The position numbers and the translations under genes are program-made. The notes beneath the pieces are model-generated. The model made no database searches and was not told where the DNA came from. It was given only the letters and a program-made list of their open reading frames with translations. From positions 83,036,151 to 83,100,150 of the forward strand of contig NC_133120.1 in the NCBI RefSeq assembly GCF_033568475.1: a stretch of DNA of 64,000 nt. Reading direction: 5' to 3'. This document shows positions 35,013 to 52,200 of the stretch, piece by piece (within the stretch, counting starts at the first letter, position 1; each line of letters starts with the position of its first letter). The DNA comes from Henckelia pumila (lineage: Eukaryota; Streptophyta; Magnoliopsida; Lamiales; Gesneriaceae).

Positions 35013-35389
35013 ATAGTACCTCCCTAACTGGTCTAAAAGAAGAATGAGTTTAGACCAAGAATGTAGACCGGACCCCGAACTACCTGTGCCTCCTTTAGAC
35101 GGCCCATATTTGAATCCGCGTGATGTGTTTTCAATGAACGGTCTAGATGAAGGTCTGATTAGAACCGAGCTCGAATAAAGGGCAATAGACGACAACCTGA
35201 TGAAACTGAGCTCAAATAAAGAGTTGTAGATAACAATTGATGTTTTCGAGCGGATCAGGCTTTTAAGATAACCACGAGTTGTGTGGGATTACATGATGTC
35301 GATCTTGGTCGGGTTTTGGAGAATACCACTGACGTGGATTTATGATGCCATTGATGTGAACTTTTTGATGCCACTGATGTGGGCCACTG

Positions 35390-36310
35390 AAGTGGGCTTT
35401 GAGTGCCAGACCTGCCTGGGCTTTGTAAATCACTGATGTGGGCCACTGACGTGGACTTTGAGTGCCAGACCTGCCTGGGCTTTGTATACCACTGATGTGG
35501 GCCACGGACATGGGCTTTTGATGCCGGACCTGCCCGGGCTTTGTATACCACTGATGTGGGCCACTGACGTGGGCCACTGACGTGGACTTTGAGTGTCAGA
35601 CCTGCCTGGGCTTTGTATACCACTGATGTGGGCCACCGACATGGGCTTTTGATGCCGGACCTGCCCGGGCTTTGTATACCACTGATGTGGGCCACTGACG
35701 TGAACTTTGAGTGCCAGACCTGCCTGGGCTTTGTATACCACTGATGTGGGCCACTAACGTGGACTTTTGATGCCGGACCTGCCCGGGCTTTGTATACCAC
35801 TGATGTGGGCCACTGACGTGGACTTTGAGTGCCAGACCTGCCTGGGCTTTGTATACCACTGATGTGGGCCACTGACGTGGGCTTTTGATGCCGGACCTGC
35901 CCGGGCTTTGTATACCACTGATGTGGGCCACTGACGTGGGCTTTTGATGTCGGACCTGCCCGGGCTTTGTATACCACTGATGTGGGCCACTGACATGGAC
36001 TTTGAGTGCCAGACCTGCCTGGGCTTTGTATACCACTGATGTGGGCCACTGACGTGGGCTTTTGATGCCGGACCTGCCCAGACTTTGTATACCACTTATG
36101 TGGGCCACTGACGTGGACTTTGAGTGCCAGACCTGACCGGGCTTTTTATACCACTGATGTGGGCCACTGACGTGGGCTTTTGATGTCGGACCTGCCCGGG
36201 CTTTGTATACCACTGATGTGGGCCACTGACGTGGGCTTTTGATGCCGGACCTGCCCGGGATTTGTATACCACTGACGTGGGATTTTGATGCCGGACCTGC
36301 CCGGACTTTA
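35390..36310 (-). repeat. Tandem array, ~59-bp unit, about 16 copies of two types
   Basis: Each unit contains GGGCTTTGTATACCACTGAT and GTGGGCCACTGACGTGG. Two subtypes differ in the middle: one with GATGCCGGACCTGCCCGGG, one with GAGTGCCAGACCTGCCTGGG. Reading upward they run roughly II, II, I, II, I, II, I, II, I, I, II, I, II, I, I, I, so an alternating dimer underlies much of the array. Long open frames on the minus strand (for example 35255-36049) are by-products of the repeat. It lies on the 3' side of the outer element. Confidence 0.85.
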
Positions 36311-36839
36311 TAAAGTGTTGAACCATAAATTGGGCCTTATTGCAATATTGCATGCCCGATATGATATAATTGGGCCTTACTGCGAGATTGCATGCCCGAT
36401 TACATAAAATAACCCAAATAAAAATGCAAGGGAAGAGAAGTCCAACAAATTTGATCACAAGAAAACAAACATGTAATTTTTATAGTAGAAGATGTCTCAG
36501 AATATTATTAATAATGATAATAAATAAAAATTTAATAATTTAATTCAAACATAAAGATGATTGAAATACTTATCTCGTTCATGCGTTGTCGATGACATGA
36601 CTTCAGATGTATAGCAAGATAATATCTTATATACTTTGATCAAAGGACCGACTTGATGTAGCCAGCGAAAATCGATCTCAACCGTCCAGAATGTGCGTCA
36701 AGATGTTCGGAACTCATGATAAAAATTTCAAATAATTTCAAAGGTTAGATTTTTGAGAATGACTTTTTCAAGAACACTGCTCAGAAACTATGCAAGCAGA
36801 TTGTGTTGCAGCTCGGCGGTCTGAGCCACCTTTCCCCAA
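36311..36839. other. Unique core of the outer element
   Basis: Non-coding stretch between the two tandem arrays of the outer LTR element. No open frame with protein character. Confidence 0.4.
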
Positions 36840-40401: not shown

Positions 40402-40689
40402 ATTTTGTAATGGTTGATGTAAACACTTAGAAGTATTGGCATACAATGCAAGCTCAGTTCTGTTCTTATTCTTTTATGTTATCATTAATTGAACTGTGAT
40501 TATTAATGCTCTAGGATGAGCTGAGCCGAGCTCCCGGAAGAGAGGTAAAATAAGCACTTAAAAATAAACCAACACCCGATGGTGAGCTGATCTCAGTTCC
40601 CTTAAGGGAGGCAAGATTTACACTTAAAAATAAACTAACACTCAAAGGTGAGCTGAGCTGAGCTTTAGATGGCCGAGCTGAGCTCCCAA
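40402..40689. repeat. Start of a ~68-bp tandem array in the Tat element
   Basis: From about 40511, units contain GAGCTGAGCYGAGCTCCC and ACTTAAAAATAAACTAACAC. The array is cut by the nested pair and related units continue at 47810-48345. Confidence 0.65.
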
Positions 40690-43577
40690 TGAAACACCCT
40701 AGTACTACTAAATGCGGAAAAACTTTTTTTTTTTTTTATATATACTAAAGATAATATTATACATATACGCCCATACATATATGTATATACTTTAAAACTG
40801 ATATTACAAATAATAACTCGCTTAATAAAATAATAAACATTTATTTGATAAAATCTTGAGTCATGCAATAAATAAAATAATGTCTATCGTGAAAATTCAT
40901 AACTTATGTCTACTAAAATCATAAACATTCAATAATTAATCATAACCAATAAAAACATAAAAATATCCTAAATATATAACTCATGCATAAATAAAATTCT
41001 AGCGAGACGGTCACGGGGCCACTGCCATGCTCGCTCATACGTCCTCGCCACCGGTAGGAGCTACATCATACTCACCTGCACCATATAAGCGTAGTGAGCC
41101 TAGAGGCTCAACATGTCTAATCCTTTATAACAAGGTTACAAATAATGCATCACGTAAATACTAATACATATACATGTACATGAGCATGCATGGAAACATT
41201 TTTCATAACATAAATGCTTAATCATAAATCTTATACATAACATAACTTTCTTCATCATACATAACATAATTGAGCATGTCATAAACATAAAAACTGTGTA
41301 TGGTCATATCCATGAATGTGACTAATAACTGTGCCGACTGATCAGTCTAAAGAACCATCGTACGTGGCGGTGGATAAATCCACCTCTATGCTGGTAGTAA
41401 ACTACCTCTGTGCCAGTGGTAAAACCCACTTCTATGCCGGTAGTAGAACTACCTCTGTGTCAGTGGTAAAACCCACTTCTATGCTGTCACATCACTTCAA
41501 TTTCCATAAAAATATTTTCATGCTCAATTCTTAATCATAAACACATCATAAAATATTTCATGTATGCATGCACTTAAAATATGTCCGTAATATATATTTA
41601 ATTAATTTTAATAATAAATATACTTTTACTTAAAATAGACTTCATGCATAAAAATAATTAAATATATATTCCGGACTTAGTTTATTTTCATGGATTGGTC
41701 CAGACTGCTGGTCTCTCTACTAAACCCCTTAACTGACTTAAAGCCTGTTAACTAACTTAAAGCCCATAATTAAATAACTAATTTTAAAAATTATAATTTT
41801 TACTAAAATAAAATACTTAAATGTTATTGGGCTTAAATAAAAATATTTAGGCCCAATAACTAATTAATTCATAAAAATTCCTAGACTGACCCAATAAAAT
41901 CACTGATTAGCCCAAAAATTCCGATGGGCCCACGGGCCCATAAAATTATTGGGTTAACTTAAAAATAATTTAAAAAGCCTAAATAAAATTATTTGGAAGC
42001 CCAAATAATTTTATTTCAAATTAAATGGCCTAAAAACCAATTAAAACATTAAACACTTTAAAATTAAAAATACTCAAGCCCGGCCCACCTAGCCCGGACC
42101 CGAACCTACCTGACCCGACCCTAGACCCTAATGACCCGACCCACTACCCTGACCCGACCCGGAACCACCCAGAACCCCAAACCCGATCCCCCCTCCTCTC
42201 CTTTCCTTCGGCCGTGCGAGCAGCCCCCTTTTCCGGCATTCGGCCGGCCAACTCCGACCACCAATGGCCGGAGCACCACCACCCTCAACAAGCCAACTCC
42301 CAGGCGGTTCTTTCACGACAAGAACCAGCCCAAACCATTGCCTAGAGACAGAGAACGAAGCCCTGCAAGTTGGCCCTTCCTCAGCTCGCGCGCAGCCGGA
42401 GCAGTCCCAGCGTTTTGCTTCGTGCCGATGACTCAGACCACCAAAGGCCACGAAACCAGTCCTCAATCTTAGCCAACATCCTAAGCTTTCAAACCCAACA
42501 AACCTCACCCAAAATAATGGCCTGAGGAAGGAGAACGAAGTCTTCTTCCTCAGGACCCTAATCTGCGCGAGCTGTGCAACAGAAATGGAAGGCTTCGACT
42601 TGGACCCCTCCATCCTCAAACCGACCACACTACTCGACCCTAGGGACCCTAGGACACCCCTTGACCAAGCCCTTAGCCCTGGACCGAACCATGCTAGGCA
42701 AAAACATGAGTTATGATCATGAATTCTCATATACATGCATCAAACATCAAAAGTTTGCATAAATTCGAAATACTTATGAAAAATTCTGAACAAGAACAAT
42801 CATGCATGAATAATAGCTCATATGGTGGCCAAAGAAAAGTTTTAGACATGCCTTGATAATTATTGGACGGAAATTGATGCGTTTACGGGCTTCCGGGACG
42901 ACGAACGGACCAAAATAATCCAAGAAAATGATGGATCGGCTATGGAGGTTGAAGTTTTCTGTCAACACTATGGTGGAGGCTGATGAAACGTGAGGAAGAT
43001 GATGAAAAAATATGGGGGAGGCGGCTAAAGATTTTTAATCGGTATAGGGATTTATTTTTAGGTTTAATTTGAGTAGATATTGGTTAAATAAATAATAATA
43101 ATCAACATAAAGATAATATACCAACAAAACTTTATTTAAAACTCCTAATAATAATAAAAAAATCTGATAACACAACCAAAATCCCGAAATATAAAATTAG
43201 GGAATTTTTAAATATTAATAAAAGTCATTAAAATGACTTATTTTGACTAAAAATCAACTATTAAATAAATATATAACTAAATACTAAATTTTTCTTGACA
43301 AAATATCTTAAAATAATATTTTAAGGCTTAAAAACTCATAAAATATTTTTGGCTAAATATTTTGGCATCTCGTCCGTCCACGGTCCCGTCTACGCGATCA
43401 AAACCAATTAATTTCCATAAATCACAAAAATCACTAATTTTGGGTTAAATGCTAAAATAACTTAAATCATTCATATAAATCACATAATAACACATAAATT
43501 CATTTAACCCTTATTTTAAAATTAATTTCTCCTAATTATGCATGCGAATTTACGTATTAAAATTTCCGGGTGTTACA
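40690..43577 (-). repeat. Giant LTR, left copy
   Basis: 2888 bp. Contains a short internal duplication at about 41385-41480 (CTACCTCTGTG and AAAACCCACTTCTATGC repeated) and a GC-rich part (about 42080-42460) in otherwise AT-rich sequence. Open frames inside recur in the right copy and are not gene-like. Confidence 0.9.
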
Positions 43578-43844
43578 ATTCTCCCCCCCTTAAATTGAAT
43601 TTCGTCCTCGAAATTCGACGGAATCTGTCTGGGAGGCATTCTGTACCACCACATATTTCCTTACGTAAATCGCAATGCATAACTAAGGGTTTCAAAAGTC
43701 TTACTGAACATGAAATACTTAAAATTAATACATATGCTCCTTCTAAATCTTATTAAAACATTTAAAACTTACAGACCAGTAGCAGGATTTCTGAGCTTCA
43801 CGTGGCAGATGGACACCCTCCGAGGACCGTGCTCTGATACCAAT
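43578..43844 (-). other. 267-bp core of the giant-LTR element
   Basis: Holds only a purine-rich tract with a polyprotein-tail relic at the left, AT-rich filler, and the Met-tRNA primer-binding site at the right. Confidence 0.8.
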
Positions 43845-46731
43845 TGAAACACCCTAGTACTACTAAATGCGGAAAAACTTTTTTTTTTTATATATATACT
43901 AAAGATAATATTATACATATACGCCCATACATATATGTATATACTTTAAAACTGATATTACAAATAATAACTCGCTTAATAAAATAATAAACATTTATTT
44001 GATAAAATCTTGAGTCATGCAATAAATAAAATAATGTCTATCGTGAAAATTCATAACTTATGTCTACTAAAATCATAAACATTCAATAATTAATCATAAC
44101 CAATAAAAACATAAAAATATCCTAAATATATAACTCATGCATAAATAAAATTCTAGCGAGACGGTCACGGGGCCACTGCCATGCTCGCTCATACGTCCTC
44201 GCCACCGGTAGGAGCTACATCATACTCACCTGCACCATATAAGCGTAGTGAGCCTAGAGGCTCAACATGTCTAATCCTTTATAACAAGGTTACAAATAAT
44301 GCATCACGTAAATACTAATACATATACATGTACATGAGCATGCATGGAAACATTTTTCATAACATAAATGCTTAATCATAAATCTTATACATAACATAAC
44401 TTTCTTCATCATACATAACATAATTGAGCATGTCATAAACATAAAAACTGTGTATGGTCATATCCATGAATGTGACTAATAACTGTGCCGACTGATCAGT
44501 CTAAAGAACCATCGTACGTGGCGGTGGATAAATCCACCTCTATGCTGGTAGTAAACTACCTCTGTGCCAGTGGTAAAACCCACTTCTATGCCGGTAGTAG
44601 AACTACCTCTGTGTCAGTGGTAAAACCCACTTCTATGCTGTCACATCACTTCAATTTCCATAAAAATATTTTCATGCTCAATTCTTAATCATAAACACAT
44701 CATAAAATATTTCATGTATGCATGCACTTAAAATATGTCCGTAATATATATTTAATTAATTTTAATAATAAATATACTTTTACTTAAAATAGACTTCATG
44801 CATAAAAATAATTAAATATATATTCCGGACTTAGTTTATTTTCATGGATTGGTCCAGACTGCTGGTCTCTCTACTAAACCCCTTAACTGACTTAAAGCCT
44901 GTTAACTAACTTAAAGCCCATAATTAAATAACTAATTTTAAAAATTATAATTTTTACTAAAATAAAATACTTAAATGTTATTGGGCTTAAATAAAAATAT
45001 TTAGGCCCAATAACTAATTAATTCATAAAAATTCCTAGACTGACCCAATAAAATCACTGACTAGCCCAAAAATTCCGATGGGCCCACGGGCCCATAAAAT
45101 TATTGGGTTAACTTAAAAATAATTTAAAAAGCCTAAATAAAATTATTTGGAAGCCCAAATAATTTTATTTCAAATTAAATGGCCTAAAAACCAATTAAAA
45201 CATTAAACACTTTAAAATTAAAAATACTCAAGCCGGCCCACCTAGCCCGGACCCGGACCTACCTGACCCGACCCTAGACCCTAATGACCCGACCCACTAC
45301 CCTGACCCGACCCGGAACCACCCAGAACCCCAAACCCGATCCCCCCTCCTCTCCTTTCCTTCGGCCGTGCGAGCAGCCCCCTTTTCCGGCATTCGGCCGG
45401 CCAACTCCGACCACCAATGGCCGGAGCACCACCACCCTCAACAAGCCAACTCCCAGGCGGTTCTTTCACGACAAGAACCAGCCCAAACCATTGCCTAGAG
45501 ACAGAGAACGAAGCCCTGCAAGTTGGCCCTTCCTCAGCTCGCGCGCAGCCGGAGCAGTCCCAGCGTTTTGCTTCGTGCCGATGACTCAGACCACCAAAGG
45601 CCACGAAACCAGTCCTCAATCTTAGCCAACATCCTAAGCTTTCAAACCCAACAAACCTCACCCAAAATAATGGCCTGAGGAAGGAGAACGAAGTCTTCTT
45701 CCTCAGGACCCTAATCTGCGCGAGCTGTGCAACAGAAATGGAAGGCTTCGACTTGGACCCCTCCATCCTCAAACCGACCACACTACTCGACCCTAGGGAC
45801 CCTAGGACACCCCTTGACCAAGCCCTTAGCCCTGGACCGAACCATGCTAGGCAAAAACATGAGTTATGATCATGAATTCTCATATACATGCATCAAACAT
45901 CAAAAGTTTGCATAAATTCGAAATACTTATGAAAAATTCTGAACAAGAACAATCATGCATGAATAATAGCTCATATGGTGGCCAAAGAAAAGTTTTAGAC
46001 ATGCCTTGATAATTATTGGACGGAAATTGATGCGTTTACGGGCTTCCGGGACGACGAACGGACCAAAATAATCCAAGAAAATGATGGATCGGCTATGGAG
46101 GTTGAAGTTTTCTGTCAACACTATGGTGGAGGCTGATGAAACGTGAGGAAGATGATGAAAAAATATGGGGGAGGCGGCTAAAGATTTTTAATCGGTATAG
46201 GGATTTATTTTTAGGTTTAATTTGAGTAGATATTGGTTTAAATAAATAATAATAATCAACATAAAGATAATATACCAACAAAACTTTATTTAAAACTCCT
46301 AATAATAATAAAAAAATCTGATAACACAACCAAAATCCCGAAATATAAAATTAGGGAATTTTTAAATATTAATAAAAGTCATTAAAATGACTTATTTTGA
46401 CTAAAAATCAACTATTAAATAAATATATAACTAAATACTAAATTTTTCTTGACAAAATATCTTAAAATAATATTTTAAGGCTTAAAAACTCATAAAATAT
46501 TTTTGGCTAAATATTTTGGCATCTCGTCCGTCCACGGTCCCGTCTACGCGATCAAAACCAATTAATTTCCATAAATCACAAAAATCACTAATTTTGGGTT
46601 AAATGCTAAAATAACTTAAATCATTCATATAAATCACATAATAACACATAAATTCATTTAACCCTTATTTTAAAATTAATTTCTCCTAATTATGCATGCG
46701 AATTTACGTATTAAAATTTCCGGGTGTTACA
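43845..46731 (-). repeat. Giant LTR, right copy
   Basis: 2887 bp partner of 40690-43577. It is followed by a 10-bp stretch (ATTTTAATCA at 46732-46741) and then the Cassandra element. Confidence 0.9.
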
Positions 46732-46938
46732 ATTTTAATCATGTGACACCCGGAGCCAAAAAGTCCTAGGGCGGTACATGGTCCGCAATATGGGTGGTTA
46801 ATACCTGAAAGATGGAAACCCCACCAAAGAATGGGCGACGGGTGACATGAATGAACCGATCCCACACCGGAATGAGAGGTACAAAAGATTTGATATGTAC
46901 AACTCATATCAAGAAGGTGCATCTTCTTTTCGGGAGCT

Positions 46939-47020
46939 CATCATATAAGAACTCTAAAGTTAAGCGTGCTTGACTTGGGGAAATTATAGGATGAGTGACC
47001 CCCTGGGAAGTTTTCCAGGG
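46939..47020 (+). other. 5S rRNA-like segment in Cassandra LTR 1
   Basis: Contains AGTTAAGCGTGCTTG (the 5S box A region), TAGGATGAGTGACC and CCCTGGGAAGT (the box C region), in 5S order and spacing. In Cassandra this segment is known to act as an RNA polymerase III promoter. It is not a genuine 5S gene: the rest of the molecule is missing. Confidence 0.85.
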
Positions 47021-47350
47021 TGCGTGTGAGTGAGGACATAAGCACGCTGAAAAGACCCGTCTTGATACAGTGGGTCGTTACAAATGGTATCAGAGCCTGG
47101 CCTCTCCCAGTACGGTGTGGTTCGGGGACGAACCAAGCGGAAGCTGGTGGGCATGTGACACCCGGAGCCAAAAAGTCCTAGGGCGGTACATGGTCCGCAA
47201 TATGGGTGGTTAATACCTGAAAGATGGAAACCCCACCAAAGAATGGGCGACGGGTGACATGAATGAACCGATCCCACACCGGAATGAGAGGTACAAAAGA
47301 TTTGATATGTACAACTCATATCAAGAAGGTGCATCTTCTTTTCGGGAGCT

Positions 47351-47432
47351 CATCATATAAGAACTCTAAAGTTAAGCGTGCTTGACTTGGGGAAATTATA
47401 GGATGAGTGACCCCCTGGGAAGTTTTCCAGGG
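47351..47432 (+). other. 5S rRNA-like segment in Cassandra LTR 2
   Basis: Same segment as in LTR 1, in the second LTR. Confidence 0.85.
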
Positions 47433-47494
47433 TGCGTGTGAGTGAGGACATAAGCACGCTGAAAAGACCCGTCTTGATACAGTGGGTCGTTACA

Positions 47495-47809
47495 CCCAAA
47501 CTCTTGAACTGAGCTCCCGAGCCGAGCTATCAAATACGCCGGGGAACCTTAGCCGATCTCCCGAGCTCCCACGTCCGTGCTGCCGACCTGACCTGTTTTA
47601 TGTGACCCGAGAGCTTAAATGGGTTCCCGACCTGACCTGGGTTATGTCGCCCGAGAACTTGACTGAGTTCCCGACCTGACCTGCCTTATGTCGCCCGAGC
47701 GCTTGAATGAGTTCCCGACCTAACCTGAATTGTTCTAAGTTTACCTTGATAAGCTTTGTTTAAACAGGCACTGTATTGGTACGATAGTATTACAGGTGCT
47801 TAAGCTGAT
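47495..47809. repeat. Short ~52-bp degenerate repeats in the Tat element
   Basis: About three units with TTCCCGACCTGACCTG and TATGTCGCCCGAG between 47580 and 47730. The surrounding sequence uses GAGCTCCCGAG words like the Tat LTR. Confidence 0.55.
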
Positions 47810-48345: not shown

Positions 48346-48589
48346 GGGACCAAACTTCCGACCTGACCTAAAATGTGTTCTCAGATTGCCTAAACGGACT
48401 CCCGAACTCCCGAGCTCCCCAACCAAAATTCCTGGACCACCAACTCATCTCCATGAGACCACTATGAAGAGACCCTTCATAATTATCAAGCACGTGTTTA
48501 ACTAACTTGCTAACACCATTTGTACTTGAGTATCTAAAATGAGCTAAGGGCTGAAATCAACGTGCCGTAACTGAACTGAGCCCGAGAGT

Positions 48590-49170
48590 CAGGGTCGAGG
48601 TGACCAAACTAAGGTAGAGGGCTGAACCAAAGTCAGGGGCCCAAGAGGCGTGACTAAGGTGATGAGCTGAGCCCAATTCAGAGGCCTAAGAGGCGTGACT
48701 AAGATGATGAGCTGAACCAAAGCCAGAGGCCTAAGAGGCGTGACCAAGGTGATAAGCTGAATCCAAGTCAGGGGCCTAAGAGGCGTGACCAAGGTGATGA
48801 GCTGAACCCAAGTTAGGGGCCTAAGAGGCGTGACCAAGGTGATGAGATGAACCCAAGTCAGGGGCCTAAGAGGCGTGACTAAGGTGATGAGCTGAACCCA
48901 AGTCAGGGGCCTAAGAGGCGTGACCAAGGTGATGAGCTGAACCCAAGTCAGGGGCCTAAGAGGCGTGACCAAGGTGATGAGCTGAACCCAAGTCAGGGGC
49001 CTAAGAGGCATGACTAAGGTGATGAGCTGAACCCAAGTCAGGGGCCTAAGAGGCGTGACTAAGGTGATGAGCTGAACCCAAGTCAGGGGCCTAAGAGGCG
49101 TGAATAAGGTGATGAGCTGAACCAAAGTCAGGGGCTTAAGAAGCGTGACTAAGGTGATGAGCTGAGGCAC
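48590..49170 (-). repeat. 45-bp tandem array, about 13 copies
   Basis: The unit contains GGTGATGAGCTGAACCCAAG and GGGGCCTAAGAGGCGTGAC. Because 45 is a multiple of three, the minus strand stays open for 193 codons with a 15-residue repeat (VTPLRPLTWVQLITL). This is a repeat by-product beside the 3' end of pol, where Tat elements are known to carry satellite-like arrays. Confidence 0.85.
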
Positions 49171-49268
49171 ATTTACATCGATATTTCTGAAAAAATAACT
49201 GCTTATAGATAAACGTAGAAGGTAGCTTGCATAAATTACAACTTAAAGGAAAATTGAACTTGCAACAT

Positions 49269-52200
49269 TTAAGAATAATATTTGCGTAAATTGTAAGCGC
49301 TCCAAGGTCTCTTTAACATCTTTCCTTTTGAATCCTCCAAGTAGTAAGCATCCGAACTGAGCCTCATCACCACCTTGTATGGTCCTTCCCATTTAGGGTC
49401 GAGCTTCCCTACAGCCATCTCCTGAACTTTTCTCAACACCAAATCTTCTACCTGGAAATCCTTCCTGCGCACCCGACGATTATAGGACCGAGCTATCCTG
49501 TTCTTGTATGCCTCCATTCTGATAGCAGCAGCTTCTCTCTTCTCACCCAAAAAGTCTAGGTCTTCTCTCCTTCTCTTTCCATTTTCTTCATCATAAAAAA
49601 TGATCCGGGCCGACTCCTCCCCAATTTCTACTGGCAGGACGTCCTCATTTCCGTACACCATACTAAATGGAGTCTCTCCAGTTCCAATTCTTGGTATGGT
49701 ACGATATGACCATAATACACTAGGGAGCTCTTCCACCCAATTTCCCTGGGCTTGACCCAAACGCGTCTTCAAGCTTTGCACCAAAGACCTATTGGTTACT
49801 TCCACCTGACCATTACTCTGAGGATAATGAACAGATGTGAAGTGTTGCTGAATTTTCATTTTTTTACACCAAGCTTGCACTCGAGAACCTTGAAACTGCC
49901 TCTCATTGTCAGATATGAGCTTACGTGGTACTCCAAATCTGCACACAATATTCTTCCACAGAAATTTCAAAACTTCCCCTTCAGTAATTCGAGCTAAGGC
50001 CTCTGCCTCAACCCATTTAGAGAAGTAATCAATGGCAACCAGCAAGAATTTCTTTTGAGCTGGGGCTGGAGGGAAAGGACCCACAATATCAATTCCCCAT
50101 TGATCGAAAGGACATGCTACTACTATCCATTTCATTAACGCTGCTGGTTGGTGCTGAAGTCTACTATGTCTTTGACAACTATCACAAGAAGTCACCAAAG
50201 TTAGGGCATCTTTCAGAATAGTGGGCCAAAAATATCCCGCCAAGAGAACCTTACGGGCTAGAGAATAAGATCCTAAATGATTACCACAACACCCCTCGTG
50301 TATCTCCTTTAGGACATAATGAGCTTCCTTGGGGCCTAAACACTTGAGAAGAGGTCCGGCAAATGACCTCTTATAAAGAAATCCCTCCATCATCACAAAG
50401 CGGAGACTCCTCTGTTTCAACCGATATGCCTTCTTCGGATCCTTTGGTAACTCACCCCTCTCTATGTAATCCAAGAGCTCCTTTCTCCAGTCTCTCTCTT
50501 CCTGAGCTAATGGTGCGAGCTCAGTAGAGGGTGTCAATTCCACTTGCACAACAACTTCCCTGGTTTTCCAGCTATGAAGTGAGCTAGCCATCTTGGCGAG
50601 ATAATCTGCTTTTTCATTGCCCTCCCTCGGAATTTGTTCAAACAATACCTCATCAAAGAAACCCTTAGCTTCCTCTATCGCCTTCATATATTCCTTCAGC
50701 TTTTCATTTTTGACTTCATACGTTCCATTCACCTGCTGGGCTACTAACTGTGAATCAGAGTAGAGGTGCACCCGAGCTGCCCCAGCTTGCTTAGCTGCTC
50801 GGAGGCCAATCAACACAGCCTCATACTCTGCTTCGTTATTAGAAGCTCGAAAATCCAACCTAACTGCCAATCTGATCTCATCTCCATGAGGGGAGATCAA
50901 AAACACCCCCACCCCACATCCTTCACTATTAGAAGAGCCGTCAACGTATACTTTCCACAAATCCTCTGCTTCCATATGTCTCATTTCGGCAAGAAAATCA
51001 GCTAACGCCTGGGCCTTAACGGCCGTCCTTGGTTCATACTGGATATCATACTCACTGAGCTCCGTAGTCCACTTTACCAACCTTCCCGAAATATCAACTC
51101 GAGTTAATATCCTCCCAATATGGCTGTTGGTTAGTACCACAATAGGATGTGATAGAAAGTAAGGTCTGAGCTTCCTTGCTGTCATAACCAGGGCTAATGC
51201 TAACTTTTCCACCTCCGAATACCGAAGTTCTGCACCCTTAAGGGCATGTGAGAAGAAATAGATAGGGTGTTGAGCTGTTCTATCCTGCCTAATAAGTACT
51301 GAGCTAACGGCCCCTTCCAAAGCTGATAAGTAGATGTACAATGGTTCACCAGAAATTGCCTTAGCCAACACAGGGAGTTCAGCTAAGTAGCTTTTTAAAT
51401 CATCGAATGTCTTCCCGCATTCATCATCCCATTCAAACTTCTTGGCTTTGCGAAGCACCTTGAAGAAAGGTAAGCTTCTATGGGCTGATCTTGATATAAA
51501 TCGAGACAAGGCTGCAATCCTTCCCGCCAACCTTTGAACTTCTTGCAAGTTACGGGGAGCAGACATGGATCGAATAGCCTGCACCTTCTCAGGATTGGCC
51601 TCTATGCCCCTCTCAGTAACCATATACCCCAAAAACTTACCTCCCCTGACTCCGAATACACACTTCTCCGGATTAAGCTTCATCCGATAAGCCCTCAAAG
51701 TCGAGAAAGTCTCCTCAAGGTCGGTCAGCAACCCCACATCATCCTGAGACTTTACCAAAATATCATCTACATAAACTTCCACATTTCTGCCAATTTGGGA
51801 GGCAAACACTCGGTCCATGAGTCTTTGATAAGTGGCCCCTGCATTCTTCAAACCAAAAGGCATCACTCTGTAACAAAAAGTTCCATGAGAGGTGGTGAAA
51901 CTTACTTTGTCCTGATCTTCCTCCACTAGAGGAATTTGATGATACCCCTGATATCCATCCATGAAGCATAAGTACTGATGACCTGCCGTTGAATCAACCA
52001 ATTGGTCAATTCGAGGCAGTGGATAGCAATCCTTTGGGCACGCCTTATTTAAGTCCCTGAAATCAACACACATTCTCCACTTGCCTGAACTCTTAGGGAC
52101 AAGGACCACATTGGATAACCAGTTAGGGAATTGCACTTTCCTAATGTGTCCCGCCTTAAGAAGTTCCTCTACCTCTTTTTTAATGACCTTATCCTTGTCT

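Follow-up and report, generated by a model that had tools for sequence, protein, structure and literature searches.

Insertions in which more than one long terminal repeat (LTR) retrotransposon lies within a single target duplication have been described before. In the complex insertions attributed to template switching (PMC1950507) the elements are related, have one internal LTR in common and resemble each other in their outer LTRs. For arrays of terminal-repeat retrotransposons in miniature (TRIMs) an origin during retrotransposition has been proposed, and some complex LTR structures have one duplication (PMC11899658, PMC7215508). The junctions of 2-LTR circles of human immunodeficiency virus (HIV) show retained end dinucleotides, deletions, and inserts from the primer-binding site (PBS) or tRNA and from the polypurine tract (PPT) (PMC5618025). 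The autonomous partner of one TRIM, Cassandra, has been called unknown (PMC7215508) or left without indication (PMC10886601); these papers are cited throughout for the portions of their text available to us. Here we describe a Cassandra copy and a large gene-less LTR element that lie 10 nucleotides apart and share a single 5-bp target duplication, CCCAA, in a 64,000-nucleotide stretch of Henckelia pumila DNA (C1:83036151-83100150 of the 885-Mb genome; the whole stretch is called the window below).

That the pair entered as one unit, as a first-pass annotation made from the letters of the window had proposed, is supported because a paralogous empty site contains a single CCCAA and because seven further composites also have shared duplications. 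It is very probable that two complementary DNAs (cDNAs) were joined and went in as one unit, regardless of whether joining or integration came first.

The window pair and its empty site

The two elements are opposed, head to head, with the unique 3′ (U3) ends of their LTRs facing each other and the outer unique 5′ (U5) ends flanked by CCCAA. The opposite direction was absent from the first-pass annotation. Its other structural claims, namely the flanking CCCAA pair, the lack of a matching pair for either element alone and the 10-bp spacer, were borne out, the inner flanks of both elements differing from the outer ones. The features are as follows.

40685..40689, no strand: left CCCAA of the shared target duplication, present once at the empty site in paralogues L030-L034
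40690-46731, minus strand: large element resembling a large retrotransposon derivative (LARD), 6.04 kb
40690..43577, minus strand: 3′ LTR of the large element, with the U5 end (TTTCA) next to the left CCCAA
43578..43844, minus strand: interior of the large element, 267 bp, gene-free
43580-43591, minus strand: PPT of the large element, AAGGGGGGGAGA, plus AT
43831-43842, minus strand: PBS of the large element, TGGTATCAGAGC, plus AT
43845..46731, minus strand: 5′ LTR of the large element, with the U3 end (GGGTGTTACA on the plus strand) towards Cassandra
46732..46741, no strand: 10-nt spacer ATTTTAATCA between the elements, AT + TTTAAT (filler) + CA
46742-47494, plus strand: Cassandra TRIM, whole
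46742..47082, plus strand: 5′ LTR of Cassandra, with a 5S-like stretch at 46915-47028
47083..47153, plus strand: Cassandra interior, 71 bp, AA and PBS TGGTATCAGAGCC (47085-47097), then PPT-like GGTGGG (47146-47151) and CA
47154..47494, plus strand: 3′ LTR of Cassandra, same sequence as the 5′ LTR, with the U5 end next to the right CCCAA
47495..47499, no strand: right CCCAA of the shared target duplication

We take the small element to be Cassandra, the name also used in the first-pass annotation. It is 753 bp long (below 1 kb), with 341-bp LTRs and a 71-bp interior that contains a PBS, presumably of the Met type, and a PPT; it was judged non-coding from the interior. The Cassandra LTR aligns with the Rfam 5S_rRNA model from end to end (1-120), a weak match at 15.8 bits (gathering threshold 38; E 1.1) and the stronger of two Rfam matches listed for that stretch, and an Rfam scan of a larger stretch gave no 5S match at E 0.1. 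The large element has the characters of a LARD, with 2.9-kb LTRs and a 267-bp gene-free interior in which PBS and PPT are retained. Since both of these lie on the minus strand, the right LTR (43845-46731) is its 5′ LTR.

The outer flanks belong to a dispersed repeat, and a query made of both flanks with one CCCAA between them returned uninterrupted relatives. Of 30 related loci (L030-L059) 25 were aligned, and all 25 span the insertion site; L038 and L040 represent the window, while L039, L058 and L059 were checked apart from the main alignment (L039 is likewise uninterrupted, L058 has a gap at the site and L059 is the same place as L031). All eight relatives with at least 82% identity (L030-L037) read through without an insert. 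A single CCCAA is present at the site in five of them (L030-L034, reading ..GAGCTCCCAAACT..), and the pentamer differs in the other three (L035-L037). The pair sits precisely at the duplicated pentamer of a single-copy site and therefore fits one integrase-made insertion. A search for the window junction, suggested in the first-pass annotation, found no second copy in the genome with 3 or fewer mismatches.

Copies of the two elements elsewhere have duplications of their own. All five simple Cassandra copies among L001-L008 are flanked by a 5-bp duplication, as are 10 of 11 large-element copies with both ends covered (the window copy excluded; L021 and L029, with one end only, are outside this count). 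The exception is a full copy at C2:106949061-106958027 (L017/L018), where the flanking pentamers TCAGT and CTTTG are unmatched.

A 5-bp match is weak evidence by itself. CCCAA makes up 0.0021 of the 5-mers in the local flanks, so that the chance of a match is nearer 1 in 470 than the 1 in 1000 first estimated. Chance itself is excluded by the empty site, and with seven further composites at unrelated places it is scarcely credible that the window pair reflects a chance match or an assembly error. Alternatively, as the first-pass annotation also considered, Cassandra could have entered beside the large element and one duplication could have been lost; in general form, two independent insertions would have landed side by side and their inner duplications would have disappeared by deletion or recombination. 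The region is repeat-rich and CCCAA is common at the frequency given above, which would favour such a history. However, CCCAA is absent from the 10-nt spacer that forms the inner flanks and occurs once at the empty site, and 7 other pentamers show the pattern too. Within each element the two LTRs are also near-identical, as one event predicts: the two Cassandra LTRs, both 341 bp, differ at 0 of 341 positions, and the large-element LTRs (2888 and 2887 bp) differ by 3 substitutions in 2.9 kb and by 3 one-base indels. Side-by-side insertion explains neither the repeated shared duplications nor the spacer code described below, and we consider it extremely unlikely.

The flanks of the window pair also contain two tandem-repeat arrays, at 35253-36391 and 48518-49282 with units of 59 bp and 45 bp, one on each side of the insertion.

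Composite insertions elsewhere in the genome

Pattern searches identified candidate junctions between Cassandra and large elements at 29 places, the window included, and outer ends were sought at 15 of these. A shared 5-bp duplication was found in all eight composites, again counting the window, in which both intact outer ends were readable. They are listed with their duplication and inner pairing, the large element of each composite being termed the partner.

Window: CCCAA, U3-U3
C1:74132348: GTTAT, U3-U3
C1:94143775: CCAAC, Cassandra U5 to partner U3
C2:25790199: GTAAC, Cassandra U5 to partner U3
C2:135938850: TATTC, Cassandra U5 to partner U3
C2:108791137: GTTGT, U5-U5
C3:131867937: AAATG, U5-U5
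C2:116329340: AGTGG, partner U5 to Cassandra U3

All four end combinations are present among the eight, and the two elements are opposed in four. In six composites (all except the window and C2:116329340) the outer end of the partner was located only after the Cassandra flank had been read. For three junctions the partner U5 end was at first assumed to be GGYGTTTCA, which gave no match nearby; the actual U5 end reads GGTCGTTTCA. With the corrected pattern (215 matches, 15 in the backward control) all three outer ends were found, among the first 100 matches listed, about 10.1 kb away and with the expected pentamers, and the ends were then read. The flank of the C2:116329340 composite (L110, C2:116319060) encodes an integrase zinc-binding domain (Pfam E 5.4e-13), and the composite therefore appears to be inserted into another retroelement.

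The three search patterns differed in yield. The U3-to-U3 pattern gave 10 matches at 7 places, the window and six others, with 0 in the control; three of these six are joins of Cassandra and a large element, and that at C2:135938850 actually uses the Cassandra U5 end. The remaining candidates (L061, L069 and L070) have an LTR like that of the large element on at most one side and were set aside. The Cassandra-U5 pattern gave 38 matches (backward control 2), from which 31 falling in a palindromic repeat were dropped to leave 7 places. This repeat, GGTCGTTACA..AAGGGCGCCCTT..TGTAACGACC, occurs at 19 places genome-wide (for example C1:68263102 and C2:181194733), and its tips resemble the Cassandra U5 end. 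The partner-U5 to Cassandra-U3 pattern gave 18 matches, each at a separate place (backward control 1), of which three (spacers 12, 18 and 20 nt long) seem doubtful; outer ends were fetched at four of the 18, and were confirmed at one and not as expected at three.

A pattern for joins between two large elements gave 43 matches (control 2), mostly with long spacers; spacers of at most 7 nt were found in 13 of these 43, compared with 12 of 18 Cassandra joins (p 0.011), and some of the short-spacer joins may be real. At L002 1202-2578 (C2:104375281-104376657) two Cassandra types form an inverted array in which part of one LTR was lost at the join, and the outer U3 ends of this joined insertion share the duplication ATGTG. 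Matches to the large-element LTR also occur in tandem arrays, mostly 3.03-3.11 kb apart, at C4:49370493-49398386, C72:3200603-3214226 and C2:199764150-199780785.

Spacer sequences and the proposed joining and integration

Within each element two bases separate the LTR from the PBS or PPT. These are AA at the U5 and CA at the U3 of Cassandra, AT at the U3 of both the large element and the partner and at the U5 of the window family, and GT at the U5 of the 10.1-kb partner. In retroviral biology such LTR-adjacent dinucleotides are the expected tips of unintegrated cDNA; the available part of a review of Ty3 reverse transcription contains nothing on these tip bases. The window spacer starts with AT and ends with CA, and we infer that the AT is the pre-integration U3 end of the large element and the CA that of Cassandra. 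Taken from the Cassandra or the partner side, other spacers read AATAAT (AA..AT) at two junctions, AC, which is the antisense form of the dinucleotide at the partner U5, GTA, TG and AAT. Two spacers, ATTGGTA and TTTGGTATCA, run into the primer-binding site, and GTGGGCA is the end of the Cassandra polypurine tract. For several of the partner-U5 to Cassandra-U3 matches, with spacers TT, AG, GA and A, there is no dinucleotide expectation.

The spacers were compared with random and swapped sets at 11 junctions, those of the 29 places with family ends that were read or could be inferred. The family-specific dinucleotide is present at 16 of 22 spacer ends. Random spacers of equal length match at 1.4-2.1 of 22 ends and spacers swapped between junctions at 6.1 of 22, and in neither case did any of 100000 trials reach 16. 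In a stricter set of seven junctions, 11 of 14 ends match, compared with 0.9-1.3 for random spacers (0 of 100000 as good) and 3.1 for swapped spacers (46 of 100000 as good).

Several observations weigh against a joined insertion of two cDNAs, or weaken the case for it. The empty site is known from paralogues, not from alleles. At five further candidates (C3:33734423, C4:124557835, C4:45542369, C77:6416471 and C4:152013344) an end was not found at the expected place. At C2:60304856 (L066, L093) the partner LTR is truncated and 61 bp of host DNA are duplicated around the pair, which is not a clean paired integration; the Cassandra LTRs there differ at 10 of 341 positions, and the sister LTR of L066 was not among the matches listed in the pattern search, the LTR having proved truncated. 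At C1:140411174, one of the 7 places from the Cassandra-U5 pattern, Cassandra is truncated and the other LTR was unrecognised, and this place was not used. The expected dinucleotide is missing at 6 of the 22 ends, and it was taken from relatives at C3:33734423, C4:124557835, C2:60304856 and the U5 side of C3:131867937. Finally, the search patterns require intact LTR tips, so that resected junctions are missed and the fraction of ends with a dinucleotide is not a rate.

The first-pass annotation had suggested template switching between co-packaged RNAs as the route of joint entry, in which reverse transcriptase would produce one mixed cDNA (the model of PMC1950507). This predicts a single duplication, as observed, and co-packaging is likely in any case. 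However, the product of template switching has one LTR common to both elements and outer LTRs that are alike, which does not fit a pair that is opposed, with complete LTR pairs and unprocessed cDNA ends in the spacer. Four of the eight proven composites are in opposite orientation, the elements of the window and of C1:74132348 have separate complete LTR pairs with no LTR in common, and the spacers carry family-specific end dinucleotides. We therefore regard template switching as very unlikely.

Joined insertion would instead begin with two separate linear cDNAs, probably from one particle and made by the machinery of a Ty3 element with Cassandra-like ends. One end of each cDNA, in the window both U5 ends, would be integrated as a pair at one site to give the single CCCAA duplication, and the remaining ends, here both U3 ends, would be joined by host end joining. 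The window joint would then keep the AT and CA that integrase normally removes, together with six filler bases.

The order of these steps is a closer question. We lean slightly towards an intasome that holds one end of each cDNA and integrates first, the free ends being joined afterwards, since cDNAs joined while free would be prone to circularise. It is nevertheless quite possible that the linear cDNAs were end-joined first, as in the formation of 2-LTR circles, and then integrated through their outer ends. The spacers resemble 2-LTR junctions, the L002 array of two Cassandra copies also has one shared duplication, and C2:60304856 retains its join between Cassandra and the partner despite a broken outer partner end that was not integrated cleanly. 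Against this order, free cDNA ends should more often close into circles, and outer ends from different molecules would have to pair; both points come from reasoning and are not decisive.

A candidate helper and comparison with known systems

Cassandra is widespread in plants, and the composites point to an element that may mobilise it. From positions, the partner is 10.06-10.19 kb long in five of the eight (C1:94143775, C2:25790199, C2:135938850, C2:108791137 and C2:116329340) and 7.94 kb long at C3:131867937. In the short pieces that were read, the 10.1-kb partner has a long LTR and the PBS GT-TGGTATCAGAGCACGG. A single copy (L100, at C2:108791137) has a match to the Pfam Chromo domain at 25.4 bits (cut-off 25.1; E 1.3e-5), read as the domain alone. 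The tips of the partner LTR resemble those of Cassandra (TGTAACACCCGG and TGTGACACCCGG; GGGTCGTTTCA and GGGTCGTTACA, partner first). We propose the 10.1-kb Ty3 partner as a candidate helper of Cassandra.

The large element of the window appears to be a derivative of this Ty3 chromodomain group that lacks genes, because its PPT end agrees with that of the 10.1-kb partner at 38 of 38 nt (L114) and its PBS end has about 76% identity to partner copies over 209-224 columns of the 5′ interior (L094-L096). The RNAs of Cassandra and the partner were likely co-packaged. Mixed co-integrates are probably a regular by-product of the mobilisation of Cassandra in trans, in which it would share particle and integrase with the Ty3 chromodomain family and its LARD derivatives, and one end of each cDNA could be paired in one integration. 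If so, the helper of a non-autonomous retroelement can be read directly from fossil joins in any genome that has been sequenced. Join patterns also offer an easy way to look for pairs of helper and parasite in other genomes. The integrated joins are physical evidence that cDNAs of Cassandra and of a defined Ty3 group were handled next to each other, and they suggest that integrase in a plant cell can use ends that belong to two different cDNAs, or that cDNAs can integrate once joined.

Insertions of complex or tandem LTR structure that have one duplication are already known, and the apparently new part is the joining of cDNAs from different families within a shared duplication. No such joins were described in the titles and abstract beginnings among the literature matches listed, a scope outside which most subscription journals lie. 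As in the complex insertions of Sabot and Schulman 2007 (PMC1950507), two elements are flanked by one 5-bp duplication. Unlike the three LTRs, one of them shared, of the insertions described in the available text of that paper, the window has four LTRs in two different pairs on opposite strands, and the composites combine different families, in any orientation, around a spacer with cDNA end nucleotides. Tandem LTR structures (PMC11899658) and Cassandra arrays (PMC7215508) are likewise complex LTR structures, some with one duplication, which differ, as far as those texts describe them, in sharing inner LTRs, whereas here two families meet tip to tip. The composite spacers hold terminal dinucleotides, PBS and PPT remnants and small filler like the junctions of HIV 2-LTR circles, but the circles join the ends of one virus (PMC5618025) and the composites join two different cDNAs in the chromosome, behind a target duplication. 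The small element of the window has the anatomy of Cassandra as described (PMC7215508, PMC10886601). Where the available portions of those accounts call its partner unknown or give no indication of it, the co-integrates point to one Ty3 group as a candidate.

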